26,224 bases of DNA, taken from a virus. The DNA lies in IMG/VR virus record IMGVR_UViG_3300035698_006362, positions 1 through 26,224 of that record; one strand, given 5' to 3'. The position numbers and the translations under genes were made by a program. Positions 4,077 to 22,352 of this stretch are shown one piece after another (the first letter of the stretch is position 1; each line of letters starts with the position of its first letter). A model generated the notes under the pieces. That model made no database searches. It had not been told where the DNA came from and saw only the letters and a list, made by a program, of their open reading frames with translations.

Positions 4077-4109
4077 ATTTTTTGGGTCCAAAGCGGCTCG
4101 CTATTTCAA

Positions 4110-4709: not shown

Positions 4710-4924
4710 CGAGTCCGATAAACAATCCGGGCTTTGTTTAAATCATAAGGACTCATTTCAACTTTTACTTTGTCACCGAGTAAAATCTGTATACGGTTCT
4801 TGCGCATTTTACCAGAGATGTGCCCGAGCACAACATGTTCATTTTCTAACTTAACTCTAAACGTAGCGTTAGGAAGGACTTCTTGAACAATGCCTTCCAT
4901 ACTAATATAGTCTTCTTTAGCCAC
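4706..4924 (-). CDS. infA: translation initiation factor IF-1
   Basis: A full-length, 72-residue S1/OB-fold protein. It opens [20 protein letters not shown] and contains [32 protein letters not shown] and [13 protein letters not shown], the hallmark blocks of bacterial IF-1. Compared by eye with the remembered E. coli protein, it is collinear without gaps and about two-thirds identical. IF-1 binds the 30S A site and works with IF-2 and IF-3 in start-codon selection. The start is GTG at 4924. An AAGGAG sequence directly follows the ligase stop, about 13 nt before this GTG, so the gene is translated as the third member of the SWIM-ligase-IF-1 operon. The basic and aromatic residues for rRNA contact look intact, so it is probably functional. 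Confidence 0.95.
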
Positions 4925-7866: not shown

Positions 7867-8445
7867 ATGATAACAGGTCATGTTCAAATAGTTCCAGACG
7901 TATACAACGATTATTGCAACGCAATTATGTTGTCGCAGACTCGTATAGGCGGCACTAAACCTACATCTCCAATTAAATTTCGAGAAATACAAAATGCATC
8001 TTCTATAATTAAGATCGGATATTTCGAATCTAACGATTTGATAAGTTGGATAGAAATTAGTTTTCATCAAAGTATAATGCGTGGAAAGTTTTGGGCTATT
8101 AGTGGATTATACTCTACTAGAATTGGTCAAGTGTTTTCATTTAATAGACCGGAAATTGGCCTTACTATCAAACATGCTTTCGAAGTTGCTGAAAAACAAG
8201 GGTATTTTCAATATTTTTATTGTATTTCCGAAAAGTTAGAAAGAGTATATGAACGTCAGTGGAAAAAGAATCAATGGGGATTTAACAATCGATACGATTT
8301 AATTACTCTCGACGTTGTTCCTGCTAACACAAAACCAACATATGAGTTGTATTGGCGATTAATGGGCCAAGAATTAAAACCTGATAACATTGCAATAAAA
8401 TCACGAATATTAAAAGGATACGATCCTTTCAAAACACTACAATGA
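7867..8445 (+). CDS. hypothetical protein upstream of iscA (192 aa)
   Basis: I start it at ATG 7867 (MITGHVQIVPDVYNDYCNAI), preceded by a GAGGTAAAG ribosome-binding site, and not at the earlier in-frame ATG at 7762, which lies inside the divergent gene. The protein is mixed alpha and beta with many aromatics. It includes SIIKIGYFESNDLISWIEI and a C-terminal block with LYWRLMGQELKPDNIAIKSR. The pattern of two central beta strands followed by helices is compatible with an acyltransferase (GNAT-like) fold, but no clear acetyl-CoA motif is visible, so I give no function. The last 4 bases overlap the IscA gene (ATGA), so it is the first gene of a three-gene plus-strand operon. Confidence 0.65.
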   Translation: MITGHVQIVPDVYNDYCNAIMLSQTRIGGTKPTSPIKFREIQNASSIIKIGYFESNDLISWIEISFHQSIMRGKFWAISGLYSTRIGQVFSFNRPEIGLTIKHAFEVAEKQGYFQYFYCISEKLERVYERQWKKNQWGFNNRYDLITLDVVPANTKPTYELYWRLMGQELKPDNIAIKSRILKGYDPFKTLQ

Positions 8446-8768
8446 TCACACTAACAACAGCCGCAACGAAACAAATTACACGTTATCTAGCAAAGCGAGG
8501 AAAAGGTGCAGGAATTCGGATTGGTGTTAAAACTACTGGTTGCTCAGGGCTTGCATATGTGTTAGAATATATAGGCAAGTATGAAGCAGATGTAGGAGTA
8601 ATCAACTTTGCACAAGATAAATTTGCTGTAATTGTTGATAAGAACGACTTACCATACTTAAATGGAATGATTATTGATTTCGTAAGACAAGGATTGAATG
8701 AAGGGTTCGAGTTCAAAAATCCTAACGAAAGAGATAGATGTGGATGTGGAGAATCATTTAGGATATAA
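8442..8768 (+). CDS. iscA: A-type iron-sulfur carrier protein (IscA/HesB family), 108 aa
   Basis: Family hallmarks are all present: MITLTTAATKQITRYLAKRG at the N-terminus, GIRIGVKTTGCSGLAYVLEY with Cys34, and the C-terminal RCGCGESF with Cys100 and Cys102. This is the CxnCGC arrangement that holds Fe or a [2Fe-2S]/[4Fe-4S] cluster for delivery to client enzymes. Length and spacing match bacterial IscA, so it should be functional. The ATG overlaps the preceding gene by 4 nt and the ACP gene starts 1 nt after the stop. Clients could be the two radical SAM enzymes encoded further along (11993-14517), which need [4Fe-4S] clusters. That link is inference. Confidence 0.93.
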   Translation: MITLTTAATKQITRYLAKRGKGAGIRIGVKTTGCSGLAYVLEYIGKYEADVGVINFAQDKFAVIVDKNDLPYLNGMIIDFVRQGLNEGFEFKNPNERDRCGCGESFRI

Positions 8769-8769
8769 C

Positions 8770-9018
8770 ATGAATAATATAGAAGAAACAATTAAAAAAA
8801 TTATGGCCAAATCTTTTTTGGTCAAACTAGATCGACTTACAGACGATGCACGGCTTGTCGAAGATGTAGGTGCAGATAGTCTAGGTGTATTTGAAATGGT
8901 AATTAACTTAGAAGATGAATTCAATGTTGAATTTACAGATAAAGAAATGTTAAAATTTCAAACTGTCGGAGATGCTGTAAAAGTTCTCGCAGAAGTAATT
9001 AGAAAAGAAAAATCCTAA
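8770..9018 (+). CDS. acpP: acyl carrier protein (82 aa)
   Basis: Acidic four-helix carrier. The phosphopantetheine attachment motif GADSL has Ser37, preceded by LVEDVG and followed by FEMVINLEDEFNVEF, and the third and fourth helices include FQTVGDAVKVLAEVI. This closely follows bacterial AcpP, and the size is normal. I use ATG 8770 (AGGATATAAC just upstream), not the upstream in-frame ATG at 8698 that lies inside iscA. No acyl synthase or phosphopantetheinyl transferase is visible here, so the protein would need host Acp synthase for its prosthetic group. It could divert host acyl chains or carry aminoacyl or acyl intermediates for the nearby enzymes. It ends tail to tail against the 9019 gene. 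Confidence 0.92.
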   Translation: MNNIEETIKKIMAKSFLVKLDRLTDDARLVEDVGADSLGVFEMVINLEDEFNVEFTDKEMLKFQTVGDAVKVLAEVIRKEKS

Positions 9019-9240
9019 TCACTTTCCGTCTTGGTCAGGTAGAGGGCCGCCGTACTTAGAACCTTTAATTTTTTTACCTTTGATATAACTACCTTTGCCG
9101 TCAGTATGGCCTTTGCCCTTAGAATTATGGGGTCGAAGGCCCTGACTTACACAACTGCTGTGGTCGCTGCTGCCTAATCGTTTGGGACTGCGGCACAACG
9201 AAGGCTTTGTCTTTTCAGTTATAAACTCATGTGCTCTCAT
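9019..9240 (-). CDS. small basic Gly/Lys-rich protein (73 aa)
   Basis: Starts MRAHEFITEKTKPSLCRSPK, an N-terminus of the MRAxEFITE type I associate with many small marine-phage proteins. It then has two Cys (positions 16 and 30) and a Gly, Lys and Ser-rich tail (KGKGHTDGKGSYIKGKKIKG) ending GGPLPDQDGK. It is strongly basic and probably poorly ordered, with no membrane segment. It overlaps the 3' end of the 9227-9940 gene by 14 nt and converges on the ACP gene. It could bind nucleic acid or be a small virion component. A role as peptide substrate for the radical SAM cluster is conceivable but has no direct support. Confidence 0.6.
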   Translation of the reverse strand: MRAHEFITEKTKPSLCRSPKRLGSSDHSSCVSQGLRPHNSKGKGHTDGKGSYIKGKKIKGSKYGGPLPDQDGK

Positions 9241-9940
9241 AATGATATTTATATCTACCGTAAGTAAATTGATGATATCCTGTTAGAAATTCGGAATAGT
9301 TGGCGAGTACCGCAGGATGTAGTGTATCTATATTTAAAATATTACATAATTTTTCTTTAAAAATTTCAGGTTTATATATCATCTCTTGATATTTAATTTC
9401 AAATATGTTTGGAGAATCTGGAATAACTAAATTATGATAGCCTGCCAAAACTGCTTGATTTGACAAAATATAGTGCAAAGTTCTTGTTTGTTGGAGAGTA
9501 AGGTCAAATGGTGTTATAGTAGAATCTGGAAAGAAATTTGGATAATTTTCTATTGTGTTCTTGAAAGAATCTTTTACATAATCATCACTTTCCCAACTTC
9601 CTATGTAATAATGCTCAAATATAGAAGATGCTACCGTAATACAATCATCAAGAGAATACGTTACTACTATATTTTTTGCATTAGGATATTTTGTTTGAAT
9701 ATTTTCATAGTCGGGCAAATGAAACACGTTACAAACATGACTGCTAGTAGTTGCTGGGTTAAGGGACCAGTGGTCATAAAACCAATCTGCTGATATTAAA
9801 TCTGGTTTGTCTTCGTCAAATATTATATCATCTCTCATTACAGGTAAATCAGTTGATAAGTATTGTTTATGTATTAGCCCCGAAACTAGATAACCTAATG
9901 CTCCTGGTAAATTATTAACAATATAAATGTCTTGGTTCAT
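9227..9940 (-). CDS. possible sulfotransferase-like P-loop protein (237 aa)
   Basis: The N-terminus has a beta strand plus glycine loop, IYIVNNLPGALGYLVSGLI, where sulfotransferases carry their PAPS-binding loop. Residues about 80-115 (YPNAKNIVVTYSLDDCITVA) resemble the strand-helix block that holds the 3'-phosphate-binding residues in that family. The canonical P-loop residues are not clearly present, so the assignment is weak. Rich in Tyr, Asn and Ile, as is the whole AT-rich cluster. The ATG overlaps the stop of the 9937 gene by 4 nt, which makes it the last but one gene of the coupled minus-strand run. If not a sulfotransferase, it may be another nucleotide-dependent transferase. Confidence 0.4.
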   Translation of the reverse strand: MNQDIYIVNNLPGALGYLVSGLIHKQYLSTDLPVMRDDIIFDEDKPDLISADWFYDHWSLNPATTSSHVCNVFHLPDYENIQTKYPNAKNIVVTYSLDDCITVASSIFEHYYIGSWESDDYVKDSFKNTIENYPNFFPDSTITPFDLTLQQTRTLHYILSNQAVLAGYHNLVIPDSPNIFEIKYQEMIYKPEIFKEKLCNILNIDTLHPAVLANYSEFLTGYHQFTYGRYKYHYEST

Positions 9941-10428
9941 AGTAAACTCGCAGTGTTATATAAATTTTCTATTTTATTAATATTCATAGGATACAAAGTG
10001 TAATTTGGTATAGAAGGATCGTATTCTCCTACTTCGCAATCTATATACTTTAATTCTCCTATAGTCCACCCTACTAAACTACACATTGATCGAGTTTTTT
10101 CAAGAAGATCAAAATAGCAGGTATTAGCCTGTATCACATTAGTAAAATATTCTTTGTTATATGTTGCTAATGAAGTGTAACCTATCAAAGAGTCTTCATT
10201 AGCAATATGAAGCCTGAACGTATTAGTTTCAGTCCTATTCATTATTGCTCTACGTTGATCTATAAAAAGTTGACTCAACCGAAAAACTTCAAACAATTCA
10301 GAACTTAACTCACTTGATATTTCTGATGAAAGAAATTTAGAAATATTGATAAAGTAAGAAGAATTGTATTTTTCGTTTAATGTTACTTTTCTAATAAAAA
10401 TAGTCATTTTCATACACGTATTTACCAT
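9937..10428 (-). CDS. unknown protein, paralogue of the 10428-10901 product (163 aa)
   Basis: A TAATG stop-start overlap with the upstream gene at 10428 supports the ATG at 10428; an alternative Met is residue 6. It shares a clear pattern with its upstream neighbour: an N-terminal strand MTIFIRKVTL, a central LIGYTSLATYNKEYFTNVI, and a C-terminal WTIGELKYIDCEVGEYDP then LYPMNINKIENLY. The two genes are tandem paralogues that diverged a long time ago. Mixed alpha and beta, no known catalytic motif, no membrane segment. The family is not recognised. Two adjacent copies suggest a heterodimer or two related partners. Confidence 0.65.
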   Translation of the reverse strand: MVNTCMKMTIFIRKVTLNEKYNSSYFINISKFLSSEISSELSSELFEVFRLSQLFIDQRRAIMNRTETNTFRLHIANEDSLIGYTSLATYNKEYFTNVIQANTCYFDLLEKTRSMCSLVGWTIGELKYIDCEVGEYDPSIPNYTLYPMNINKIENLYNTASLL

Positions 10429-10901
10429 TAAAAGTTAGCAGATTTCCAAAGAGAATCTATTTCTTTAAATGTAATAGGATATCCGTTATACATTGCAGAT
10501 TCTTCATCAAATTCTCCAACTGATATTGTTACTGTTTTAGCAGGAGTCATTGACCATCCTAATAGATTCCAAATATTATTAGTAGTGTTTATTAATTGTT
10601 TATGTTCTTCTGAATTACACATGACATTTTTATATGTATCAATGTCAATGAATCCAATTGAAGTATATCCAACTAATGGGAGTTGTTCATTGACAAAAAA
10701 TTTAGTAGGGTATGCTTCTTCGTCAGTGATTAACGGCCTCATGGTTGTTTTTAAAATTTCAACAGATTCAAAAAAAGAAAATAAAGCGTCTATTTGTTCA
10801 TTTGATAGATCTACTTCTAATAATTTTCCAAAATTTCCAAAATATTTTGAAGGAAAATTCTTAGTGAGTGTATGTTTCCTAATAATTAATTTCATTTCCA
10901 T
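10428..10901 (-). CDS. unknown protein, paralogue of the 9937-10428 product (157 aa)
   Basis: Starts MEMKLIIRKHTLTKNFPSKY. The conserved pieces shared with the downstream paralogue are LVGYTSIGFIDIDTYKNVM in the middle and WNLLGWSMTPAKTVTISVGE with EFDEESAMYNGYPITF at the end. The conserved Gly-Tyr-Thr-Ser and acidic VGEFDE/VGEYDP motifs may be the functional core. No recognised domain. Starts 2 nt after the aspartyl-hydroxylase-like gene and is part of the same coupled transcript. The strong AT-bias in codon choice matches its neighbours. Confidence 0.65.
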   Translation of the reverse strand: MEMKLIIRKHTLTKNFPSKYFGNFGKLLEVDLSNEQIDALFSFFESVEILKTTMRPLITDEEAYPTKFFVNEQLPLVGYTSIGFIDIDTYKNVMCNSEEHKQLINTTNNIWNLLGWSMTPAKTVTISVGEFDEESAMYNGYPITFKEIDSLWKSANF

Positions 10902-10903
10902 AA

Positions 10904-11446
10904 TTAATCCTTCGGAGATATAACAAGATGTATTCTATCATGCTGACCTCCATTATATACAAAATGTTTCCTAGTAGTATCAACTTTGTAAAATGTTTGA
11001 TTGGCAGGAATATGAAAACATACTGCTGAAATATTAGCCTGTTTCATTATATGGGCAATAAATGCATTTTCATTAGTATAAATGACTAGATGATATCTCA
11101 CAGTATTATCTGCATGAACAGTTAATCCTGTTTTAGGGTGTAATCTCATAAATCTAGCACGGCCAATTTCAAATCCATGTTCTTGACTAAATTTTTTTAA
11201 TAAGTTAGCAGTGTATTCGGGAGTTTCATTATTGAATTCAGTAAACTCTGATTCTTTTATTAATTCAACATTGTTAACTCTATCATATAAACTTCCTGTA
11301 GAATCTTTCCACCTATCTGTTGCGTTAGGTCGATAAGTTAATCCTATTTGATTTTCGACTCCCAAATCTGCTTTAATTAGAATAGTATCGAGATCTTTTC
11401 GAACTTGTTCCAAATCTGCTGTAAATTTTAATTTTTCTATGAACAT
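10904..11446 (-). CDS. aspartyl/asparaginyl beta-hydroxylase-like 2-oxoglutarate oxygenase (180 aa)
   Basis: Fe(II) and 2-oxoglutarate-dependent hydroxylase of the Asp_Arg_Hydrox type. The core starts at GRARFMRLHPKTGLTVHADN, with H111 and D113 as likely iron ligands. Then come RYHLVIYTNENAF, FHIPANQTFYKVDTTRKHFV with H161 as the second histidine, and HDRIHLVI with R171 as likely 2-oxoglutarate anchor. The order and spacing match the family. Targets may be Asp, Asn or His side chains or a small molecule. The N-terminal 90 residues are less typical. It sits 4 nt after the methyltransferase gene. Together they resemble a tailoring pair for one substrate (inference). Confidence 0.75.
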   Translation of the reverse strand: MFIEKLKFTADLEQVRKDLDTILIKADLGVENQIGLTYRPNATDRWKDSTGSLYDRVNNVELIKESEFTEFNNETPEYTANLLKKFSQEHGFEIGRARFMRLHPKTGLTVHADNTVRYHLVIYTNENAFIAHIMKQANISAVCFHIPANQTFYKVDTTRKHFVYNGGQHDRIHLVISPKD

Positions 11447-11450
11447 GCAA

Positions 11451-11996
11451 TTATTTAACGCCTATTAACATGTATCTTTTAAATGACCAGTCTGGATAAA
11501 CAAACTCTTTTTGACCTGTAAAAACTGTATCAGACAACGGATATTCTTTAACAAAATTTTCTAACGTCTCCGAATGCACATGATGATCTGCATGCGGCAT
11601 GTTATTACCTTGCAATATAACTCTAGTACCTATAGGAATATTATCAAACCATTGCTTCGAAATAAAATGTTCAGTACTAGTATTAATAATTAAATCTCCG
11701 TATACCGCATCAAATGTATTACAATCTTGGGTAAAGGCTTTAAACTTCCATTCTTGCCATACCCAATTTTCATTAATTGTATCTGCAATTGATTCACATG
11801 CGGAATCTACATCTAAACTACGTATGCTATTGACTTCAAATACTCCTCTACTTAATAAAAGGAATCCTAATATACCATGCCACCCCCCATAGATGTATGT
11901 CATTCTAGATAACCATTTTAATCTTTCTAGTTCTTTGCACAGCCAAATTTTACTGCCTATCTGTCCGCTGCTAAATGCATCTTTATCTATATTCAT
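11451..11996 (-). CDS. SAM-dependent methyltransferase-like protein (181 aa)
   Basis: Rossmann-type class I methyltransferase features: a Gly-rich loop after a first strand (TYIYGGWHGILGFLLLSRG, about 33-51), an acidic end of strand two (SIRSLDVDSA, 58-66), a motif IV strand DLIINTSTEHF (101-111), and a later strand PIGTRVILQGNN (121-132). It is short for the class and has the extra N-terminal helix of small phage methyltransferases. Substrate unknown; the absence of a DNA-methylase DPPY or NPPY motif argues against DNA methylation. It overlaps the radical SAM gene by 4 nt (ATGA), so it is translated with it. Confidence 0.7.
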   Translation of the reverse strand: MNIDKDAFSSGQIGSKIWLCKELERLKWLSRMTYIYGGWHGILGFLLLSRGVFEVNSIRSLDVDSACESIADTINENWVWQEWKFKAFTQDCNTFDAVYGDLIINTSTEHFISKQWFDNIPIGTRVILQGNNMPHADHHVHSETLENFVKEYPLSDTVFTGQKEFVYPDWSFKRYMLIGVK

Positions 11997-13228
11997 AACA
12001 ACTCCGTAAAAAAACTACTATCACATGATCTTAGTTTGTCTAACTTTTCTAAATACTCCAATGTCTGTGGAAGCAGATGGCTCCAATCTTCGCTATTCAT
12101 AAAATCAACCATTTTTATCATTCGCTGTATACTGGGATTGTTTTTATGTTTTTTACCGAATGCCAATAACTTGTCTGTTGTTTCTTTCTTTAGATGGCTA
12201 GGTAATATTTTAGCACATAGATACTGAGGATAATGAAGTACCCCTGGATGAAAAGTGCCGTCTAAATTTTTCTGACTAATTTTTTTGTAGTTCTGTGATA
12301 ACAACCATTCAGTAAACTCTGGAAGATAGTAGATGTTTAATGCTTGTACCGTACATAATAATTTAACATCAATGTTATCAGGTGTTGTATCGTATAAATG
12401 CAAGTTACGTTCAATTGTGTTCCAGTCGGCTGGGTATCTAATATAATCATTTAATTGTGTATGCCCGTCTATACTGATCATTACATCTACAAATTTAAAT
12501 TGCTTCCATAACTCGACAACTTCTTTATCATAGATAGTTCCGTTAGTATGATATCTCAATTCTATATGTTCTGAATGGCCTAGTTCAACTAAACGTTTTA
12601 GAATTTCTTTGTGTTCTTTTATGTACAAAGGTTCACCGCCACCGAATATAATGTGCTTCATATCGGCAGCAGATTCGTAAAACTCTTCTAAGAATGATTT
12701 GCTTTTATACCAATCGAAATTGTTAACAGAATAAGATTCAATTTTGTATTTCCAATCCCACTTGACTTCAGTTTTAAGTTCGTCTTTAAGAATATTAGCC
12801 TGCTTTACCCATTTACTACTGTCAACAGGCCTGCACATAACACATTGTAAATTACAAGTATTGCCTAATCGTAAATCAAGTGTAATCCAACGTTGATTTA
12901 AAGTACCGTCAGAATCTGTAGATGCAATAAGTTGATCAATGTAGTCATCACCTAATTTGTTTTTCCAAATCCAATTTTCAATTTGTCTATGACTTCTAAT
13001 ACCTACATCTTCAACATTATAACAGGCGCCACATTCTTTTACTTTTTCACCGTTCAACATTTTAACACGAGATTGTTTAAAATGGTTGCTATTCCAAACC
13101 TGTTCTAATGTTTGTTGATTAAAATTTAGTTTGTCTGTTGAATTAGCAATACAACACAAGAGAGCAGAGCCGTCTGTATAAGAAGCCATGTGTGTCCAAG
13201 GTAATATACAAAATGTTTTTGTTTTCAT
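11993..13228 (-). CDS. radical SAM enzyme with N-terminal Cys cluster (SPASM/twitch-like), 411 aa
   Basis: A radical SAM domain is shown by RLGNTCNLQCVMCRP (C125, C129, C132, the CxxxCxxC that binds the [4Fe-4S]/SAM) and a GGEP motif in HIIFGGGEPLYIKEH, followed by MISIDGH for SAM binding. Before it, residues 7-69 carry a separate Cys set (C7, C25, C26, C66, C69), the pattern of an auxiliary Fe-S-binding SPASM or twitch-type module, placed at the N-terminus. Such enzymes oxidise or crosslink peptides, or modify sugars and small molecules by radical chemistry. Substrate unknown. A 4-nt overlap with the upstream paralogue at 13225-13228 indicates cotranslation. Confidence 0.85.
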   Translation of the reverse strand: MKTKTFCILPWTHMASYTDGSALLCCIANSTDKLNFNQQTLEQVWNSNHFKQSRVKMLNGEKVKECGACYNVEDVGIRSHRQIENWIWKNKLGDDYIDQLIASTDSDGTLNQRWITLDLRLGNTCNLQCVMCRPVDSSKWVKQANILKDELKTEVKWDWKYKIESYSVNNFDWYKSKSFLEEFYESAADMKHIIFGGGEPLYIKEHKEILKRLVELGHSEHIELRYHTNGTIYDKEVVELWKQFKFVDVMISIDGHTQLNDYIRYPADWNTIERNLHLYDTTPDNIDVKLLCTVQALNIYYLPEFTEWLLSQNYKKISQKNLDGTFHPGVLHYPQYLCAKILPSHLKKETTDKLLAFGKKHKNNPSIQRMIKMVDFMNSEDWSHLLPQTLEYLEKLDKLRSCDSSFFTELL

Positions 13229-14517
13229 AAGTTTGCTAATCTTTTACTAATATCTGATAAAGATTGATCACGTTCTTTATCTAATGAGTGGGTATAAGTT
13301 TTAAATTTATTCAACTGTAATTCCCAATCTGCTGCCCTATCTTGTTCTAACAATCCTATAATACCATTTACACTATTCACAGTTAATTCGGGTGTTCTAC
13401 TATTGAAATAGGTATTTTTATAATCAATTAAATCTGCTGCAACTCGGTGTCGAATATCGTCGGGCAATATTCCCACTGCTAGATGTTTCGGATGTACATT
13501 AATTAAGAAGTCAACAAAAATATTAGTGTTGTATTTTTTGTTTAAACTTTCTACCCATTCGAGCGTATCAACTAAATTGAATATATTATATACCTGCACT
13601 GTGGGAGTTACTCCTAAATGTACATTTGGCATCTGTGCTAATGTTTCAATGTTTTTAGATATCTGACTCCAATTACTCGGTGAACGTATATAGTCGTTGA
13701 CTGCACCTACGCCATCAATGCTTGCATTAATATTAACTCTGTTAAATTGCGATATAAGATTTGTAAACTTAGTGTTAACATTAGTACAATTAGTGTTAAA
13801 GAACATAACAATGTCTTTACGATTCTTATCAATGCATTCTTGCATAAATTTAAAGTTATTCTTAATTAGAGTAGGTTCGCCACCTGTCATGTAAACTTTT
13901 TTTAAATTAGGAATCATTTCATTAACTTGATCCCAAAGAATGTCTTTGTCAAACCATTCTTGGATGTCGTTAAATCTAGGATCAAATTTGCCAAAAGTAC
14001 TAGCCCATACTACTTTGTATGCAGGATCTTTCTGTTCTAACTCTATGTGTTCTTTAGCAATCTGACTGCTGTTAAACGGACTGCACATCCTGCATTTTAA
14101 ATTGCAAAGATTGCCTAATCGCAAATCTAAATAGGCAATACTGTAATCAATTTCGCCGCCTGAAACGATTGCTTGATCTATTCGTTTATTAATTTCGCTT
14201 TCAGTTAATTGATTAATCCATTCTGAATTTGCATATTGTCTGTTACTAGTTCTGCCACTAGATTCTTGTAGATAACAAACATTACATCCTTCCAATTTCT
14301 CACCGTTAATCATTGCCATTCTCATTCTACGCATTTCTTGAGAATTCCATGCATCACTTAATTGATCTTTAACAGTGTATTTTGTTCCGTCGGATTTCTT
14401 TAATTGACTATATTGGCCTTTGATCATACAACAAGGACGAATAGCACCGTCAGTATTAACTACTAGGCTAACAAACGGTATAGTACAAAATGTAGGAGAA
14501 TCTTTAATAGGTTTCAT
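13225..14517 (-). CDS. radical SAM enzyme with N-terminal Cys cluster, paralogue of 11993-13228 (430 aa)
   Basis: Same architecture as its downstream neighbour. The N-terminal Cys set is C11, C29, C30, C78 and C81 (FCTIPFVSLVVN, RPCCMIKG, LEGCNVCYLQ). The radical SAM CxxxCxxC is at C138, C142 and C145 (RLGNLCNLKCRMCSP), with the GGEP motif in VYMTGGEPTLIKNN and a later INASIDGVGAVNDYIRSP block. The second copy has diverged strongly, so the two may do different steps on one substrate or form a pair. The start overlaps the 14504-15694 gene by 14 nt. Both enzymes require [4Fe-4S] clusters, which the IscA-type protein at 8442-8768 could help supply. Confidence 0.87.
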   Translation of the reverse strand: MKPIKDSPTFCTIPFVSLVVNTDGAIRPCCMIKGQYSQLKKSDGTKYTVKDQLSDAWNSQEMRRMRMAMINGEKLEGCNVCYLQESSGRTSNRQYANSEWINQLTESEINKRIDQAIVSGGEIDYSIAYLDLRLGNLCNLKCRMCSPFNSSQIAKEHIELEQKDPAYKVVWASTFGKFDPRFNDIQEWFDKDILWDQVNEMIPNLKKVYMTGGEPTLIKNNFKFMQECIDKNRKDIVMFFNTNCTNVNTKFTNLISQFNRVNINASIDGVGAVNDYIRSPSNWSQISKNIETLAQMPNVHLGVTPTVQVYNIFNLVDTLEWVESLNKKYNTNIFVDFLINVHPKHLAVGILPDDIRHRVAADLIDYKNTYFNSRTPELTVNSVNGIIGLLEQDRAADWELQLNKFKTYTHSLDKERDQSLSDISKRLANL

Positions 14518-15694
14518 TGTTAAATTTTTCCTTTAACCATTGCCTATCATTTATCATTTTTAATGCTTCTGAATTATTTTTATTGTCTAATCCGTATTTT
14601 CTTCCAGCACGAGCACCTTGTATTGAATAATTGCCAAATTCTCTATCTCGTCCGTAATCACTGCACCATTGACTTAACCGTTCGTCGTTTTCTTCGACTA
14701 TTTGATTTTTAATAGTCGATGCTGCAAGTTTAGCACACTCTCTAAATGCACTCCGCCATGTACTGAAAGGATCAGTATTAAATTTTGTTGTATTGCTTAC
14801 TCTATTCATTACTTTAAGTTTGTAACTGATGCTAGTGGTCATATCAACATTCCACGTTTCGGCGGCATCCAAAATATGTTTAGGAAACAGTTTCACTCCT
14901 CCGTACCCATATTCTAGATCATTAATAGGATTAACACTTTTCCATACATGAATTGTATCTCTATTCCAAATATTAGGTTGATAATTAAAATAAAAATTGT
15001 CTAACAGGTCTGCATCTCCGTCAACAACATAGAACATATCAGTTTGTGATAATTGTGCCGCTGCCTTGTGTGCTTCAAATATACCTTTAACACCATGTAC
15101 TCTTTGTGCGAAAGGACACTTTTTTAAAACTTGTTCCCAATTTGCATCAGCATTAGGTTCGTCATAACTGATAAAAACAACATCTAATTCGTCAGCAATA
15201 TTAGGTGTAAGATATCCCATATTCTTCATACCAACAGTTTGCGTAACAGTTGACCAATTGCGCACCCAAATAAGTTCATCTGCCCATTTTGGATCTAAGA
15301 ACCATGTATGTTCTAGATTATAGTCTTCCAGTTTAATTTTATAATCAATATTGTCAAACAAATAGAGAGGAAGTTCTGTATTTTCTTTTTTATATGTATC
15401 TAATTCTATGTCTTTCAAACTGATTTCAATTATTTCCCATCCATCAGCAGGTTCCCAATCTTTTTTAAATTTTTTAACTAACCATTCATTTTCTTCTACC
15501 CAAACTATGCATTTACTAGATCTAATAGAAGTATCGATGTAATTCGTAATCCAATGTTCATACACAGGATTAACAACTAAAAATTCATTATGCTTTGTGT
15601 TAAGCGTATGCAATCGTTCATCGAAAGTATTAGGTGATACATCCCATCGTACAGCCTTAACTAATTCTTTGTCTATTAAATTTATAGATCCCAT
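14504..15694 (-). CDS. glycosyltransferase-like protein, larger paralogue (396 aa)
   Basis: A GT-A-like fold is suggested by a block shared with the next gene upstream: VVFISYDEPNADANW (about 172-186), RVHGVKGIFEAHKAAA (198-213) and FYVVDGDADLL (221-231). In the last, the DGD triad is a DxD-type sugar-nucleotide and metal site at the end of a hydrophobic strand. The first 165 residues are an extra N-terminal domain absent from the paralogue, with many Trp and acidic residues. The C-terminal part has WRSAFRECAKLAASTI, also matched in the paralogue (WRAGFREGVKMTL). Donor and acceptor are unknown. It overlaps both neighbours (14-13 nt). Confidence 0.65.
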   Translation of the reverse strand: MGSINLIDKELVKAVRWDVSPNTFDERLHTLNTKHNEFLVVNPVYEHWITNYIDTSIRSSKCIVWVEENEWLVKKFKKDWEPADGWEIIEISLKDIELDTYKKENTELPLYLFDNIDYKIKLEDYNLEHTWFLDPKWADELIWVRNWSTVTQTVGMKNMGYLTPNIADELDVVFISYDEPNADANWEQVLKKCPFAQRVHGVKGIFEAHKAAAQLSQTDMFYVVDGDADLLDNFYFNYQPNIWNRDTIHVWKSVNPINDLEYGYGGVKLFPKHILDAAETWNVDMTTSISYKLKVMNRVSNTTKFNTDPFSTWRSAFRECAKLAASTIKNQIVEENDERLSQWCSDYGRDREFGNYSIQGARAGRKYGLDNKNNSEALKMINDRQWLKEKFNNETY

Positions 15695-16593
15695 TTTACA
15701 TCCTTTTCCATTAAGGCTGTGTTAGTGCGAGCAGGATTAACAAATACTTCTCTAAAAAATTCACTGCTGGCGGCATCTATATCTGCAATAGGTAAATTTA
15801 ATTTTTCTCGAAGAACATTACCAAAATGTTTTGCATCCTGTATAGGATCACAATCTTTCCATTCTTCAAATAGTTTATTAAGATATTCGAAATCACGTAC
15901 TTGCACATAATTCCAATCAGTGCAGTTAGTCATATAGGCACCTTGCCGTGCTCCTAGTATTGCCCAGTCGCCATTCTCTACATCAGCACCTACTGAACAC
16001 CACATGAGTAGTCTACGATAATTCCGCAATCCTAATTGTTTTTTAATATTAATTAATTCTTGCTTAACGCCTTTGTTAAGTGTCATCTTAACACCTTCAC
16101 GGAATCCAGCACGCCATGCCTGTAGCGAACTTGCATTATTATGCACTACAGAATAACAATCTGCCATTTGCACATAATTGTTCTGCCAACAGAAATCAAC
16201 CTGATTGGTATTGTTGTCTGCTTGTTCGTGTGTTTGCATGTTTGATACAAATTCACGAGTCCAAACTTTTAGTCCACCATTACCGTAAACAAGTCCGTTA
16301 ATTATATTACGGCCGGTCCAACTCATTTGAGTCATTTCTTTCTTAGGTAACTTATCTGTGTCTATTGTCAAATTAAAAAATGCAGGATCAATTATATTGT
16401 CTCCGTCTACTGTAATAAAATGTTCAGTTTCACTTAAATTAGCACATGCTTTGTGGGCCGTGTCACTGCCTTTAACACCGTGAACACGCTTTGCCCAGGG
16501 TGCTTTGTTTAATAAATTAGCATAGTTATATTCAGCATTAGGTTCATCGTAACTTAAAAATATGCAATCGATTTCAGATAAGTGTAGTTTCAT
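15682..16593 (-). CDS. glycosyltransferase-like protein, smaller paralogue (303 aa)
   Basis: Begins close to the conserved core: DCIFLSYDEPNAEYNY (about 9-24), KRVHGVKGSDTAHKACANLS (35-54) and FITVDGDNII (59-68) with the DGD metal and sugar-nucleotide triad. It is collinear with residues about 165-396 of the 14504-15694 product, including the Trp-Arg-x-x-Phe-Arg-Glu block, so the two arose by duplication with gain or loss of an N-terminal domain. Probably a GT-A transferase for a sugar chain on phage virion or host envelope. The exact CAZy family cannot be fixed by eye. The start overlaps the 16590 gene by 4 nt. Confidence 0.65.
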   Translation of the reverse strand: MKLHLSEIDCIFLSYDEPNAEYNYANLLNKAPWAKRVHGVKGSDTAHKACANLSETEHFITVDGDNIIDPAFFNLTIDTDKLPKKEMTQMSWTGRNIINGLVYGNGGLKVWTREFVSNMQTHEQADNNTNQVDFCWQNNYVQMADCYSVVHNNASSLQAWRAGFREGVKMTLNKGVKQELINIKKQLGLRNYRRLLMWCSVGADVENGDWAILGARQGAYMTNCTDWNYVQVRDFEYLNKLFEEWKDCDPIQDAKHFGNVLREKLNLPIADIDAASSEFFREVFVNPARTNTALMEKDVKWDL

Positions 16594-17114
16594 TTTTTAA
16601 TATGGCTGTACGTTCCAAAAATTTTCATAGTATATAAATTAAAATCGTGTGTTCCTGTGTAGTGATATCTGTCTCCGGAATTGAACTGAGTTGGATCTAG
16701 AACTTGCGACCATAGTGGAAAATACGGATCATTAGGCATGCACGCAACTAAATGTATTTTCTTTTTGCTTTCTTTCCACCACGTTATAGCATCTGATTGC
16801 ATATCTATTTTAATAATACAGTTAGCAGTATCTTGCGTTACTGTAAAGTTAGATTCCGTGTTTAAAAAAGGTATTTTATAAACTTTTTCATCTTTTGGAA
16901 TTACAGAATTCCCTAACATTTTTTGTTTAATTATTCCTTTTGTATTATCAGATAACAAAGGAACTATAATATAATTTAAAGATTTTTCTCTACCTAAAAA
17001 AATATTCAATGCAAGAGGATCAACTGTGTCAATCCAAGGATCAACAGTATTATCAAGCAATTTATGGCTTAATCCAGTGATACTATAATTTAACGGATTG
17101 TAATAAACTATCAT
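16590..17114 (-). CDS. hypothetical protein within the glycosyltransferase run (174 aa)
   Basis: The ORF begins MIVYYNPLNYSITGLSHKLL and has mixed alpha and beta content, with blocks such as YIIVPLLSDNTKGIIKQKM and WWKESKKKIHLVACMPND. Cys are at about 98 and 124 but not in a metal-binding pattern. No DxD motif. Both ends overlap glycosyltransferase-like genes by 4 nt, so it is translationally coupled and probably works with them, for example as a partner, acceptor-binding or donor-making subunit. No family is recognised. Confidence 0.6.
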   Translation of the reverse strand: MIVYYNPLNYSITGLSHKLLDNTVDPWIDTVDPLALNIFLGREKSLNYIIVPLLSDNTKGIIKQKMLGNSVIPKDEKVYKIPFLNTESNFTVTQDTANCIIKIDMQSDAITWWKESKKKIHLVACMPNDPYFPLWSQVLDPTQFNSGDRYHYTGTHDFNLYTMKIFGTYSHIKK

Positions 17115-17884
17115 ATGAAATCTTTCTCAACATAATGCAGAATTCCAGTTTGAGGAAAAGCACCAATTTTAAAGCTGGCGGCACCCTTATAAGCACCTAG
17201 TACTCTTGTCCATTTATTATTAGATGTTGCCAACCCTTGACAATTATCTTTCATATGTGTAAAAGTTGGATAACTAAATTTAGAAATTACTTGAGATTCA
17301 ATATCTAGAATTTTAACCGCAATAGCCATAGCAACATCAATAGATGGAAATTTTTGAGAATATTCGGGAGAATATCTCACTGTCCAGTCTTTCCAGTTTG
17401 CTACAATATGTTTAACCAACTCAAAAAATTCAGCAGTTATTTTAGATTTTTTAAAATAAGTAAACGCAGAATACACGTCAGGTAATTGATTGTGAATAAA
17501 CGTCTTTCGGTAGGGACTGTTAATTATTTTCATGCCCCTATATGTTAACACTTTGCTAGTTAAAAGTAAATCATATTTTTCAAACATCTTCCACCAATGA
17601 CTAACATCAGATAAGAACAGCATATCTGCATCTAATATCACAGTTTCTTCGTAAGGTGTTAGGTTGTAAAATTTTACTCTATTTTCTATTTTCCACTTTG
17701 AATTAGCAGCCAGATCTTCATCAATCGATATTACTTTGTCGAACAAGGTGCAATCAACATCTTGATCAGTTATCACAGACAACCGAGAAACACCACTTTG
17801 AGTGTTTCGAATACTGTGAGCAAGGTGTTCTGATTGTCTGGCATACTTTTCTCCTTGCGCCATTACTAAATAACCTTTGCTCAT
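17111..17884 (-). CDS. GT-A glycosyltransferase-like protein (257 aa)
   Basis: N-terminal strand MSKGYLVMAQGEKYARQSEH, then LTPYEETVILDADMLFLSDV (about 75-94), in which DAD at 85-87 is the DxD metal and sugar-nucleotide site at the end of a strand. The 'Tpy.eTvilDaDml' pattern is typical of GT8-like transferases. Conserved hydrophobic segments and a His near the C-terminus (GILHYVEKDFI) fit the late metal-binding His of this fold. A paralogue lies directly upstream (17881-18684, overlap 4 nt). Probably transfers a sugar to a phage or host glycan; donor unknown. Confidence 0.7.
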   Translation of the reverse strand: MSKGYLVMAQGEKYARQSEHLAHSIRNTQSGVSRLSVITDQDVDCTLFDKVISIDEDLAANSKWKIENRVKFYNLTPYEETVILDADMLFLSDVSHWWKMFEKYDLLLTSKVLTYRGMKIINSPYRKTFIHNQLPDVYSAFTYFKKSKITAEFFELVKHIVANWKDWTVRYSPEYSQKFPSIDVAMAIAVKILDIESQVISKFSYPTFTHMKDNCQGLATSNNKWTRVLGAYKGAASFKIGAFPQTGILHYVEKDFI

Positions 17885-18684
17885 ACTAGTTCCTGATTAA
17901 TTAATTTTATTAAATCGTATTTGTTAAACATATGTACATCATGTGATATTTTGCAAACACCGTTAGCAGTTAAAAACGCAACATAATGATCAGTTGTTTT
18001 TATCAATTGGTCGTCGTAAGTACTGTACAACAAGTTGAACGGAATAGTGGCAGCAGGGTGGCCTAAACTATGCAGTGCAATACTCCAAACAAAATCATTT
18101 CTCAACGGATTAGCGGGTATTTCATGTACATGTGCTAGCCAACTATAATTCTCTTTGACCCATTTACATTGCTTAAAAAATAATTCAGTAACTTCTGTCT
18201 TTTTAAAGTAGCAGATAGTAGCCCAGTAAAACTTAATACTTCGATCACTTATCCAGGTAAATTCAGACAATTTGTTGCCGTATAGATTAGTCGATTTATC
18301 ACACACTAGCAGGTCTTCACTAGTTCCCCATAATTTGTTTAGATTCTCAGTCTGTATTAAAATATCAGTGTCAATTAGAATTGTTTCATCGTAGGGAGTA
18401 ATGTCCCAGGCATCAGATCTATCTAAATTATGAAAAGTCAATTGATTTTTTCCGGCGCCGTATCTTTTAGTTTGAGTAGCAACAGATTCTAAATACACCA
18501 CCTGGTCAAAACAAGATTTCCAATTTGGTCGCAAATTATCAAGATCGGTAGCAGTTGCTTGATCAAGAACCACAGTGACAGGTTTGTTTAATATTTTTTT
18601 AATTTGCTCGGCTTGAGATACTGCAAGTAGTCCATAAGATATGTGTTCGTTGTTGTGAGCAAACACTAGAAACCCTCGAGTCAT
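17881..18684 (-). CDS. GT-A glycosyltransferase-like protein, second copy (267 aa)
   Basis: Clear relative of the 17111-17884 product. The start MTRGFLVFAHNNEHISYGLL corresponds to MSKGYLVMAQGEKYARQSEH, and ITPYDETILIDTDILIQTEN to the downstream LTPYEETVILDADMLF block, with DTD (105-107) as the DxD site. A C-terminal HDVHMFNK offers candidate metal-binding His residues. The tandem pair is consistent with two successive sugar additions. Start at ATG 18684 overlaps the stop of the 18681 gene (4 nt). The codon composition is as AT-rich as the cluster that follows; the gene upstream is less so. Confidence 0.7.
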   Translation of the reverse strand: MTRGFLVFAHNNEHISYGLLAVSQAEQIKKILNKPVTVVLDQATATDLDNLRPNWKSCFDQVVYLESVATQTKRYGAGKNQLTFHNLDRSDAWDITPYDETILIDTDILIQTENLNKLWGTSEDLLVCDKSTNLYGNKLSEFTWISDRSIKFYWATICYFKKTEVTELFFKQCKWVKENYSWLAHVHEIPANPLRNDFVWSIALHSLGHPAATIPFNLLYSTYDDQLIKTTDHYVAFLTANGVCKISHDVHMFNKYDLIKLINQELV

Positions 18685-19016
18685 AGACCTACCAAAGATC
18701 TTACAGATCGCTGGCGACGAAGCAGTTGATATTGTTCTCCGTACTGGCCCAATGCTGTTCGGTATGCTGTTTTTGCAGCAGATAACAATGCAGCAGAATC
18801 TTCAACTTGGACAGGAGTTCCGTTAAGATCTAATACCCATTTGTTGTCAATGTCAAAACCGCCTAACCATTCTTGAGATATTCTAAACAGTCCGCCGGCA
18901 TGGGCTAGCAAGGTATCTGCTTCAAATTGTTCTTTAAGCAGTCGTCGTTGTTGATTTAGAGTTTCTTGGTATTTGGCAAAACTTAATGCCTTTTCTAGAT
19001 GTTGTTCTGTAGTCAT
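18681..19016 (-). CDS. hypothetical helical protein (111 aa)
   Basis: I use ATG 19016 (MTTEQHLEKALSFAKYQETL); a GTG five codons upstream at 19031 is possible. Highly helical and charged in the first 45 residues (NQQRRLLKEQFEADTLLAHA), then GGLFRISQEWLGGFDIDNKW and a helical C-terminus with YRTALGQYGEQYQLLRRQRS. It looks like a small structural or chaperone-type protein, of the kind seen near virion genes in marine phages, but I cannot name it. The start codon falls within the 19012-19044 inverted repeat. The stop overlaps the GT gene start, so this is the first gene of the long coupled run. Confidence 0.6.
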   Translation of the reverse strand: MTTEQHLEKALSFAKYQETLNQQRRLLKEQFEADTLLAHAGGLFRISQEWLGGFDIDNKWVLDLNGTPVQVEDSAALLSAAKTAYRTALGQYGEQYQLLRRQRSVRSLVGL

Positions 19017-19044
19017 GCTAGTAATTATCACTAGACAGCATGAC
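19012..19044. other. imperfect hairpin over the start codon of the 18681-19016 gene
   Basis: The 6-bp arms GTCATG/CATGAC (19012-19017 and 19039-19044) and the 5-bp inner arms CTAGT/ACTAG (19018-19022 and 19030-19034) enclose a 7-nt loop, with a 4-nt bulge at 19035-19038. On the minus-strand transcript the structure includes the ATG at 19016..19014. There is no T-tract, so an ordinary terminator is unlikely; translational control or an RNase site is possible. Confidence 0.5.
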
Positions 19045-19060: not shown

Positions 19061-19909
19061 TTACCAGTTACTGGTGTTGGCAGGCGTCGGGTTTGTTAAT
19101 GTAATAGCATCTACACTGTGATACCTAGTAATCGATGCTGCTGCATCTGTGGTAACGTCTTCATCTACAGGTCCTGTAGTACCTGCTCCGAGCTGGTCGT
19201 CGCCTATGTCAGCGTCGTTGATTGTAACAGTAACAGTAAGCACAGTTGCGCTGGTCTTGACTATCTCAATTCGTGCAAAGTTTTCAGTGTACTGACTGAC
19301 GTCACCATACTCGTACACATCTATAGTTGTACCAGCATCCCATTGTGTGTTACCGTAAACCTGCGTAGGAATCACATTTAAGATGTTGTTCTGCCAGTCA
19401 TCATCCTTGCTAGATCCTGCAGAGTTACTACCGCTTACGTCTACTGAAAAATAGCCGCCTGCGTTAAACCAGTAATTGGCCTGCGCTGCATCAGCCCACG
19501 TATATGTATAGGTCCAACCATGATTGCCGTTCCAGGCTGAAGTTAAACTGGTACTAACCACACTAGACGCTAATTGTGTAGCAGCAAAGACTGTATTTTT
19601 GTTAGTTTCACAATAATCAGCGGCTGTTTTGTAGGCGTTATAGTCACTGGCATTGATTAAGCCTGCGGCTGCAAGATCATTAATTGAACTGTTGCTGCCA
19701 GTAATATGCGTGTAGGCCTTGTTGATGTCAGTTCTCAGCAGATCCATATCGCTGGCAGTGATTACCGGAACTCCGCTTAACGTAGCACTAACAATGCTGT
19801 TACCGTAATAGGTACTGACAACACCTGCAATTACTGTCTGTATTGCATTATAGTCTGCTAGATAGACTAGATCGCCTGTTGCTTTGGGAAAACTGCCTGC
19901 TGTTGCCAT
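19061..19909 (-). CDS. virion structural or fibre-like protein (282 aa)
   Basis: Starts MATAGSFPKATGDLVYLADY. Ser, Thr, Ala, Asn and Gly-rich with few charged residues. It has a helical N-terminal half (TDINKAYTHITGSNSSINDL), then a beta-rich region with many aromatic residues (WTYTYTWADAAQANYWFNAG, YFSVDVSGSNSAG) and a C-terminal half of Thr, Val and Asp strands ending TLTNPTPANTSNW. This composition is typical of tail or fibre proteins and not of enzymes. An AGGATAAGTT ribosome-binding site precedes ATG 19909, and a CATAAATA box lies about 28 nt upstream. Exact position in the particle is unknown. Confidence 0.6.
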   Translation of the reverse strand: MATAGSFPKATGDLVYLADYNAIQTVIAGVVSTYYGNSIVSATLSGVPVITASDMDLLRTDINKAYTHITGSNSSINDLAAAGLINASDYNAYKTAADYCETNKNTVFAATQLASSVVSTSLTSAWNGNHGWTYTYTWADAAQANYWFNAGGYFSVDVSGSNSAGSSKDDDWQNNILNVIPTQVYGNTQWDAGTTIDVYEYGDVSQYTENFARIEIVKTSATVLTVTVTINDADIGDDQLGAGTTGPVDEDVTTDAAASITRYHSVDAITLTNPTPANTSNW

Positions 19910-19936: not shown

Positions 19937-19944
19937 TATTTATG
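19937..19944 (-). promoter_or_regulatory. candidate T4-type late promoter box (CATAAATA)
   Basis: Minus-strand CATAAATA followed by AGTGTTAG, about 28 nt before the ATG of the virion-like gene at 19909. It is the same octamer as before the collagen-like fibre at 4110-4117. The box lies just upstream of that gene, in the short gap after the GT2 stop at 19945. Late-promoter function is inferred from the resemblance to T4 TATAAATA. Confidence 0.4.
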
Positions 19945-20694
19945 TTATTTTTGTTTAACTAGATCGTGCCCGAAGGCAAACTCACCTAGGTGTTGTACTT
20001 GACGACTTAGAATGTCGTCTACCAATACTCGAAACCCTTTAGATCGTGCTTTGGTGCAGAAATTAAAGTCTTCGCCTAGGTAGTCTTTGGTCAAAGGATC
20101 CCATTTGATTTCAAACCAAGGGGCTGGCTCTGATTCAAACACCCTAAGATCTGTCAGCATACAGCCCATGCCAATACCTTCTACTTCGATCAGTTCTTTT
20201 ACCAATGGGTCCTCTGAAGTATGTGTCAACACTGTGTCCCATTTGTACAGTTGCGTGTAGGCTACTGTTTTGTATGGTTGTTGTCGGCGTACATAGTTAG
20301 CAGCCACAACAGGCTCCTTGTGATCCAACAGTTTGTAGGCAGTATAGAAAGGAAAACTCATATCCGAGTCCAACCACAGAATATGCGTAGCAGCCCAACT
20401 CTTAGCAGCACTGACTAGACTCTCACGCTGGTTGCATACCAAGGTACCCATATTGTAAAAAACTTTTGTCTCTATACCCTTTTGCCAGTTGTATTGCAGC
20501 AGGCTATTGAGATTATGGCTAAACACAGAATGAAGGGTGTCTTTGCAGGGCACGCATATGGCCAATCGAATTTCTTCAGGGGGCTCTATTACCGAAGTTG
20601 TCGAGGCCACTGGTGCAGGAGTAGGGGTGGTAGTTGATTTAACCGGAGCCACTGGTCCAGGGACAGTGTTCAGGGCTTTTTTGATCATGCTCAT
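19945..20694 (-). CDS. GT2-like glycosyltransferase with Pro/Thr-rich N-terminal tail (249 aa)
   Basis: Residues about 10-40 form a Pro, Thr, Ala and Val-rich, probably flexible tail. The GT-A core starts at EIRLAICVPCKDTLHSVFSH. The DxD motif is in ILWLDSDMSF (D109, D111), and GEDFNFC (207-213) supplies the acidic ED-type motif near the catalytic base, followed by His-rich QHLGEFAFGH. These order and spacing features fit a family 2-like glycosyltransferase. No membrane segment, so it probably works in the cytoplasm on a soluble or virion acceptor. The ATG overlaps the stop of the 20691 gene (ATGA). The neighbouring virion-type genes suggest virion glycosylation, which is inference. Confidence 0.7.
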   Translation of the reverse strand: MSMIKKALNTVPGPVAPVKSTTTPTPAPVASTTSVIEPPEEIRLAICVPCKDTLHSVFSHNLNSLLQYNWQKGIETKVFYNMGTLVCNQRESLVSAAKSWAATHILWLDSDMSFPFYTAYKLLDHKEPVVAANYVRRQQPYKTVAYTQLYKWDTVLTHTSEDPLVKELIEVEGIGMGCMLTDLRVFESEPAPWFEIKWDPLTKDYLGEDFNFCTKARSKGFRVLVDDILSRQVQHLGEFAFGHDLVKQK

Positions 20695-21462: not shown

Positions 21463-21630
21463 ATGAACGAAAGACTAGAATTAATATTGGCTCGCATACG
21501 TGACACAGAGCAGGAAATGGCCCTGGCATATCGGAATGAACCCTGCAGCGAACACCTCGATGATCTACTGAACATACAGGCTCGCATCAGTCAGATTGAG
21601 GCCGAGATACAAGCCCATAGTGGTCAATAA
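21463..21630 (+). CDS. small coiled-coil-like protein (55 aa)
   Basis: Reads MNERLELILARIRDTEQEMA, then ALAYRNEPCSEHLDDLLNIQ and ends ARISQIEAEIQAHSGQ. The Leu, Ile and Ala spacing in both halves fits a short helical hairpin. It overlaps the 3' end of the PMM-like HAD gene on the other strand by 44 bp (21587-21630) and stands between minus-strand genes. No obvious ribosome-binding site or TTGACA promoter. Included because the reading is clean, acidic-basic balanced and helical; it may be a genuine small phage gene. Confidence 0.5.
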   Translation: MNERLELILARIRDTEQEMALAYRNEPCSEHLDDLLNIQARISQIEAEIQAHSGQ

Positions 21631-22297: not shown

Positions 22298-22321
22298 AAG
22301 TTCATATCCACCTTTTGAATA

Positions 22322-22352
22322 CTTATACAACACTCACGGCCACTCCTGTCAA
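22322..22352 (-). promoter_or_regulatory. probable sigma70-like promoter for the PMM-like HAD gene
   Basis: Minus strand TTGACA (22352..22347) followed either by TGTATA at 17 bp or TATAAG at 19 bp (22327..22322). The surrounding GTGTTGTATAAG resembles the GTGTTATAAT of the early promoters on the right, with two bases more. 25-31 nt lie between the -10 and the ATG 22297. Confidence 0.45.

Follow-up and report, generated by a model that had tools for sequence, protein, structure and literature searches.

Introduction

Phage glycosyltransferases often act on DNA, and in mycobacteriophages, phage-encoded glycosyltransferases are reported to act on the virion (Freeman et al. 2023, cited in PMC12619734). 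A related set of genes occurs in the host recognition cluster of pelagimyophages and cyanomyophages, which is defined by its position between VrlC and gp14. In this hypervariable region of T4-like aquatic phages, tail fibres are found together with GT8 glycosyltransferases and radical SAM cassettes (Zaragoza-Solas et al. 2020, PMC7029224). The available text of that report proposes that the GT8 genes modify the host O-chain, and states that late promoters were not detectable in pelagimyophages.

The window analyzed here is a 26,224-nucleotide stretch of viral DNA, comprising positions 1 to 26,224 of IMG/VR record IMGVR_UViG_3300035698_006362. An initial annotation made from the sequence alone described a set of glycosyltransferase-like, radical SAM and other enzymes at 9227–18684 that matched no known phage system. 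This claim of novelty stands only in part, because the combination of GT8 and radical SAM cassettes had been reported in 2020, whereas the fixed core described below does not appear in the available text of that report (PMC7029224). The locus shares the phage type, hypervariable setting and gene families of the host recognition cluster, but differs in its strictly ordered, fibre-coupled F-t-A-B-c-G core and its late-promoter-like motifs. Like the mycobacteriophage system, it is proposed here to glycosylate the virion itself; unlike that system, it couples the glycosyltransferases to a fibre gene and combines them with radical SAM, methyltransferase-like and oxygenase genes.

Results

Twelve tightly packed minus-strand ORFs are indeed present at 9227–18684, with overlaps of 1–14 nt or gaps of 2–4 nt; from low to high coordinate, the spacings are -4, -1, +2, +4, -4, -4, -14, -13, -4, -4 and -4 nt. 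The extent originally given was too short, however, as these genes make up only the 3' end of a unit of 14 genes: a further -4 nt overlap leads to t (18681..19031, minus strand), and a +29 nt gap separates t from the fibre-like gene F (19061..19909, minus strand), where the unit starts. The initial annotation thus left out two genes, and with them the link to a fibre gene and a late promoter that gives the best clue to function. Four paralogue pairs were confirmed by BLAST, with identities of 27% (9937/10428), 29% (11993/13225), 37% (14504/15682, over 216 aa) and 27% (17111/17881). Hydropathy analysis revealed no membrane-spanning segment in any cluster protein, and no precursor-like small ORF was found inside the operon.

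The first gene of the unit, F, encodes a candidate glycan acceptor and in relatives lies directly behind tail-fibre or virion-structural families. Two further proteins accompany it in the core. The conserved 116-aa protein t was aligned with its homologues and occurs at 152 loci, while c (16590..17114, minus strand; 161 loci) is a 174-aa, mostly beta protein with an Ig-like C-terminal half, as judged from its AlphaFold2 model (pLDDT 92). Residues 86–174 of c aligned with a DUF3244 Ig-like domain (Z 5.5); the structure search of the PDB, in which the effective comparison covered the C-terminal half only, gave no confident match, and a search of BFVD picked up three phage proteins at E values under 1e-6, all with uninformative names.

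The core also encodes three glycosyltransferases, all on the minus strand. The product of B (17111..17884) is GT8-like, with a PDB profile match to glycogenin (5e-7), an invariant DxD motif (D85/D87) and a match to phrog_1903. Its paralogue A (17881..18684) is placed in the same family by a weak glycogenin profile match (E=0.12) and invariant residues D105/D107. The AlphaFold2 model of G (15682..16593; pLDDT 89, pTM 0.89), which carries a VDGDN motif, has the GT-A fold, its PDB GT-A matches reaching Z 9.9 across 141 residues, and D63/D65 are invariant in 40 sequences. The glycosyltransferase domains of collagen-type LH3 and COLGALT1 resemble G, recalling a hydroxylate-then-glycosylate scheme for a fibrous protein, but this similarity is at the level of the general GT-A fold only, and the hydroxylase family differs. 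Downstream of the core, G2 (14504..15694, minus strand) encodes an N-terminal extension and a GT-A domain paralogous to G, to which it is fused at two loci (L007 and L008).

Two radical SAM enzymes follow, R2 (13225..14517, minus strand) and R1 (11993..13228, minus strand). Both are full-length members of the N_Twi_rSAM family (NCBIfam NF033640), scoring 372.4 bits for R2 and 377.5 bits for R1 against a curated cut-off of 170 bits and covering model positions 1–396 and 2–384 of 398, respectively. Each has a CX3CX2C motif and an N-terminal cysteine-rich twitch/SPASM domain, and R2 also matches the Pfam SPASM and Radical_SAM models. The CX3CX2C motif is retained in 249 of 249 full-length radical SAM proteins. 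Matches to a QueE-like radical SAM family were weak and far below the NF033640 score, and every RiPP-maturase equivalog fell far below its cut-off. The NF033640 library entry states no function for the family, and full-text literature searches found no article that treats N-twitch radical SAM enzymes in phages. Copy number behind the core varies from zero to seven per locus, with up to 13 NF033640 matches in one phage record; in roughly half of the contigs recovered with G, the nearest eight genes include no radical SAM gene, so these enzymes are optional. Tandem duplication within one phage was considered as the main source of the copies and rejected, as the nearest relative lies in another contig in 216 of 221 cases.

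The remaining genes are also on the minus strand. The product of H (10904..11446) belongs to the Fe(II)/2-oxoglutarate Asp/Asn-hydroxylase family (PF05118, 3.8e-10; 40.3 bits, cut-off 22.6), with an invariant iron triad (H111/D113/H161) and R171. Its closest solved relative is the caprazamycin beta-hydroxylase Cpz10 (7v4f, 1.6e-16), which shares the facial triad and acts on a small aminoacyl-nucleoside. The hydroxylase call of the initial annotation, like its radical SAM and glycosyltransferase calls, was borne out. The gene that it read as a methyltransferase, M (11451..11996), is class I SAM-methyltransferase-like by motifs seen by eye (IYGGWHG, SLDVD and NTSTEHF), and profile searches of Pfam and the PDB gave no match; relatives occur at 81 loci and in Bdellovibrionota chromosomes. 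The paralogues u1 (10428..10901) and u2 (9937..10428) were related by BLAST and alignment, with u1 having relatives only in close phages. The sulfotransferase call for S (9227..9940), also made by eye, found no support (Pfam Sulfotransfer_3 E=0.19, 12.4 bits versus a cut-off of 27; no PDB profile match), although S keeps its place as last gene of the unit in relatives.

Homologues scattered without order, the outcome named by the initial annotation as speaking against a single pathway, were not what we found for the core. Instead, the order F-t-A-B-c-G is fixed in well over 100 contigs. It was present in 59 of 60 contigs recovered with G as query; in those recovered with B, the other core members were present in 46–47 of 47; and t-A-B-c-G lay directly downstream of F in 62 of 64 contigs recovered with F alone. 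Across loci, genes overlap from t onward (median -4 to -8 nt), with a gap of about 60 nt between F and t. The block in relatives sits behind virion-structural and tail-fibre genes. In one relative, the fibre genes are preceded by a gene for a virion structural protein of 4476 aa, which may or may not be VrlC. Cassette-bearing phages encode T4 Gp23. Searches of 50,697 annotated phage records found no match to G, t or F and no near-identical DNA; B had a distant match in Synechococcus phage ACG-2014f, within a post-fibre gene run, and R had distant matches only, nearly all in Vibrio phages including KVP40.

A T4-type late-promoter-like motif, ATAAATA, lies 28 nt before F (19937..19943, minus strand), the sole minus-strand copy between 9253 and the fibre region. 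When genes with an intergenic gap were scored within 80 nt upstream, the motif preceded 86.5% of gapped fib8 genes and 59.8% of gapped F genes, but 1.2% of block genes. In all 87 loci with ATAAATA within 4 kb upstream of t, the distance from the site to the start of an ORF was 90 bp at most, versus 8% expected. On the replication side, the motif was also present before 19% of the genes with a gap. As a control, we looked directly upstream of gp23, where it was absent in 10 of 10 records; thus, it does not mark every late gene. No intrinsic terminator stands out inside the unit, and sigma-70 promoter and terminator scans showed no excess over shuffles. We infer that the 14 genes are transcribed as one unit. 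The fixed core order, the gene overlaps and the lack of a terminator standing out inside support the earlier reading of a single, co-transcribed pathway.

The GC content of the twelve genes is 28–37%, versus 42–53% for most neighbours, which the initial annotation took to suggest that the cluster was acquired separately. The wider comparison does not favor this interpretation. In 128 of 128 loci, the block has a higher AT content than the fibre genes, but its mean is only 1.2 GC points below other genes, and the contrast persists in diverged relatives that share the cluster. AT-richness therefore characterizes the block over the long term and does not mark a recent gain.

Genes near the unit may contribute to its function. 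In its own clade, an extra glycosyltransferase-like gene, g (19945..20694, minus strand; phrog_1574, 7e-25; phrog_12406, glycosyltransferase, 4.9e-5), lies upstream of F. A phosphomannomutase-like gene (21587..22333, minus strand; PF03332 PMM, 1.6e-23), whose position is kept in close relatives, could possibly supply an activated sugar precursor; relatives carry an epimerase and a UDP-glucose dehydrogenase near the cluster. On the plus strand, an IscA-type Fe-S carrier (8442..8768; PF01521, 2.6e-17), also found near the cluster in L014, L017 and, by sequence, L291, possibly supports the radical SAM enzymes. An acyl carrier protein gene (8698..9018, plus strand; PF00550, 6.3e-10) has the same position in the close relative L291. 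A weakly QueC-like PP-loop gene lies nearby at 6901–7803.

Discussion

The gene order, the A, B, G, R and H families, the conserved catalytic residues and late-promoter-like motifs found at fibre genes rather than within the block are the observations that any explanation must accommodate. We consider it moderately likely that they reflect a late-expressed, fibre-coupled pathway by which a T4-like phage assembles and decorates a glycan on its own fibres. Transcription would most likely start from a gp55-type late promoter before F and run through t, A, B, c, G, G2, R2, R1, M, H, u1, u2 and S. The GT8-type enzymes A and B would start and extend a sugar chain on one or more fibre proteins, with F the prime candidate, and G and G2 would lengthen or branch it with more sugars. 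These sugars or their precursors may then be modified by the radical SAM enzymes, by the methyltransferase-like protein and by the oxygenase, possibly by oxidation, epimerization, dehydration, methylation or hydroxylation. Because the core is fixed while the downstream enzymes differ between phages, the resulting coat would be lineage-specific, and could change receptor choice or shield the fibres. The acceptor, the chemistry and the benefit are all inferred. As in virion glycosylation, the glycosyltransferase genes are linked to virion genes, with F-t-A-B-c-G preceded by fibre and structural genes. A tie to glycan chemistry also exists outside phages, since G-G2-R and M recur in Bdellovibrionota chromosomes, once next to GT2-type genes. 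The nearby sugar-supply genes and the lack of membrane-spanning segments in the cluster proteins likewise favor this model. Counting against the fibre model are the gp23 and replication-side ATAAATA counts, the report that late promoters were not detectable in pelagimyophages (PMC7029224), the optional radical SAM genes and the Cpz10 substrate, which is not a protein.

The main rival, which we regard as rather unlikely, is that the enzymes alter the LPS or another surface glycan of the host, blocking superinfection or aiding release. This is the published interpretation of pelagimyophage GT8 genes in the same type of region (PMC7029224, available text), and it fits the chromosomal relatives of G, M and R, which in Bdellovibrionota are found near ordinary glycosyltransferases, as G is near one in Rhodobacteraceae. 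Yet the block sits behind the fibre gene and late-promoter-like motifs, and its predicted late expression would allow little time to change the host surface. Moreover, it encodes no flippase, polymerase or membrane-anchored GtrB-like protein, whereas Gtr-type O-antigen serotype conversion needs the membrane flippase GtrA, the bactoprenol glycosyltransferase GtrB and a membrane GtrC.

The likeness of H to a caprazamycin enzyme suggests another product, either a decorated small molecule or a building block in which an amino acid is linked to a sugar, then moved to a glycan or released, made by the oxygenase, radical SAM, PP-loop enzyme and acyl carrier protein. At a Halobacteriovoraceae locus, G, M and R do occur together with a PP-loop enzyme and a protein that weakly matches Asp_Arg_Hydrox, and the PP-loop and acyl carrier genes adjoin the cluster here; however, these genes and iscA lie outside the operon and are rare across loci, and the fixed partner is the fibre gene, making this explanation improbable. 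We assign still less weight to RiPP-like maturation, in which the R enzymes would crosslink or epimerize a peptide or fibre protein that is then glycosylated. The SPASM-type auxiliary Fe-S domain, weak matches to peptide maturases and a fold of G that is similar to those of SunS and ThuS, which are peptide S-glycosyltransferases, are in its favor, but the SPASM-like domain is N-terminal, and the cluster has neither a curated maturase match nor a precursor-like ORF. Hypermodification of phage nucleic acid with glycosylated bases, a common role of phage glycosyltransferases that the QueC-like gene might also suggest, is very improbable: the locus is in a fibre operon, not beside replication genes, no cluster protein tested matches a PHROG for DNA glucosyltransferase, and the only base-modification-type matches are the weak ones of R to the QueE-like family.

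Returning to the fibre-glycan pathway, large T4-like phages of aquatic bacteria probably use this gene set to build an unusual sugar coat on their own fibres. More tentatively, virion decoration may be modular, the fixed core being paired with N-twitch radical SAM enzymes that can replace one another, which would give every lineage its own chemically unusual fibre glycan. The fixed core and variable tail make this idea testable directly from gene content. If true, uncultured T4-like phages of aquatic habitats would, as a large group, cover their fibres in sugar structures that vary and are made with radical chemistry, paralleling O-antigen variation on the phage side. This could explain the glycosyltransferase and radical SAM genes noted but left unexplained in host-recognition islands, give the phage branch of the N_Twi_rSAM family a testable role, and make fibre glycans a new layer of phage-host recognition.

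Conservation of the gene cluster

The minus-strand cluster of twelve genes described in the initial annotation (9227-18684) is present in full. Neighbouring genes are -14 to +4 nt apart, the paralogue pairs were confirmed, and GC content is 28-37%, versus 42-53% in most neighbours. The unit also extends upstream beyond the twelve, to t (18681-19031, 4-nt overlap) and then to the fibre-like gene F (19061-19909, 29-nt gap). IMG/VR profile scans identified at least 592 stretches related to G and at least 297 related to B; the best 80 of each were taken, and 165 loci were analyzed by gene calling and iterated HMM search. These loci have a rigid core, F-t-A-B-c-G, followed by variable R (N-twitch radical SAM), extra G, and M. 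The full ordered core was found in 59 of 60 G-anchored loci with enough flank, and each other core member was present in 46-47 of 47 B-anchored loci. When F alone served as anchor, t-A-B-c-G lay immediately downstream in 62 of 64 loci, in a scan of the best 80 F relatives (F-like proteins that match less well could occur without it). Thus, the core order is kept in other phage contigs, a check that the initial annotation had suggested. Close relatives also carry the entire M-H-(u)-S set of the window, in which u denotes the unassigned paralogous genes at 9937 and 10428, and S the gene at 9227-9940.

The AT-richness of the block had been taken as a mark of separate acquisition, a reading that did not hold. 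In 128/128 loci with data, GC content is lower in the block than in the fibre genes (mean difference 5.8 points). The block is only 1.2 GC points below other genes, however, and the same block/fibre contrast recurs in relatives sharing roughly 54-77% protein identity. AT-richness is a stable property of the block and does not mark recent gain.

Overlapping genes for an IscA-type Fe-S carrier and an acyl carrier protein, in different frames (8442-9018, plus strand), are divergent from the cluster and adjoin it in the close phage relative L291 too; L291 also encodes a TctC-like (tricarboxylate receptor) protein (4988-5782, slightly under the Pfam cut-off) close to a cell-wall hydrolase. On the minus strand are a full-length translation initiation factor IF-1 gene (4706-4924; PF01176, 5.9e-27), which overlaps an opposite-strand HNH endonuclease gene at that gene's end, and a eukaryotic-type phosphomannomutase gene (21587-22333; PF03332, 1.6e-23).

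Protein families of the block

The two predicted radical SAM enzymes clearly belong to the twitch-domain family NCBIfam NF033640 (11993-13228, 377 bits; 13225-14517, 372 bits; cut-off 170). Each has a SPASM-like domain at its N-terminus and the motif CX3CX2C, which is kept in 249/249 full-length R. A locus may have anywhere between 0 and 7 R copies, and two 358-382 kb records (L078/G001 and L133/G003) have 13 N_Twi_rSAM matches apiece. For 216 of the 221 R of multi-copy loci the nearest relative is in another contig, so these copies belong to an old paralogue set that is being reshuffled. The claimed aspartyl-hydroxylase-like oxygenase (H, 10904-11446) matches PF05118 with its HxD...H triad intact; its nearest solved relative is Cpz10, from caprazamycin biosynthesis. 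Asp_Arg_Hydrox occurs in 14/26 phage records with R versus 0/10 without (Fisher p 0.003, ignoring relatedness and record length), with one copy within ~4 kb of an R gene in each of the six records where both sets of positions are known.

The two glycosyltransferase-like pairs were also borne out. B (17111-17884) is glycogenin-like (5e-7, PDB profile) and A (17881-18684), its paralogue, has a weaker match; for G (15682-16593), the model predicts a GT-A fold (pLDDT 89, pTM 0.89; Z up to 9.9 across 141 residues), and G2 (14504-15694) has a paralogous domain. The confident model of c (16590-17114; pLDDT 92) is mostly beta, with an Ig-like C-terminal half. For the putative methyltransferase M (11451-11996), the assignment stands only as a class I likeness by motif. 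The sulfotransferase label for 9227-9940 was dropped because family searches gave no significant match.

The G profile also matches cellular loci. Some contigs binned into MAGs carry the complete cassette and are probably phage. Bdellovibrionota chromosomes have G-G2-R or G-M plus further radical SAM genes, and one Halobacteriovoraceae locus also encodes GT2-type glycosyltransferases, a PP-loop enzyme, and a product weakly matching Asp_Arg_Hydrox. Thus, the module without the fibre gene occurs in bacteria, adjoining glycan genes. The window itself encodes a PP-loop ATPase-like protein (6901-7803, minus strand) with a weak likeness to QueC (Pfam E=0.082). PP-loop genes lie beside G/M/R in Halobacteriovoraceae (L192) as well, and in phage KVP40 (L197) a QueC-like gene adjoins radical SAM genes.

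Late-promoter-like motifs and proposed function

Families upstream of F match tail-fibre and virion-structural PHROGs, preceded in one relative by a 4476-aa virion structural protein; T4 Gp23 is carried by 11/16 records tested. The T4-type late-promoter-like motif ATAAATA has only three minus-strand sites in the window. One lies 28 nt ahead of F, another 19 nt ahead of a collagen-like fibre gene (2253-4091), and the third, at 9252, precedes a small gene (9019-9240). Among genes of relatives with an intergenic gap, it precedes 86.5% of the fibre family fib8 and 59.8% of F; the corresponding figures are 1.2% for block genes, 21% for other genes, and 19% for replication-side genes. In all 87 loci with a site in the 4 kb upstream of t, the site fell ≤90 bp before an ORF start (random positions, 8%). 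The simplest reading is that late transcription would run from fibre promoters through the cassette, although the motif was not found directly upstream of gp23 in ten records. The 73-aa basic product of 9019-9240 (minus strand) begins MRAHEFITE, which by eye resembles the T4 capsid-targeting (gp21-cleaved) signal, and is possibly a packaged internal protein.

In the best-supported model, which we consider somewhat probable, the cassette would glycosylate the phage's own fibres late in infection, in coupling with the fibre gene, and radical, methyl, and hydroxyl tailoring would modify that glycosylation. Virion glycosylation is reportedly already known in mycobacteriophages. The main rival, that the enzymes remodel the host envelope, is suggested for similar pelagimyophage genes in a published study (PMC7029224); however, the cluster lacks any membrane component and the cassette has a fixed link to the fibre, and we regard remodelling as unlikely.

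The initial annotation knew of no described phage system of this composition. This is only partly so, as the same study places both GT8 genes and radical SAM genes in host-recognition clusters (PMC7029224). As far as the literature consulted shows, what is new is the fixed fibre-glycosyltransferase core with its late-promoter-like signals, together with a radical SAM complement that varies and the Bdellovibrionota parallel.
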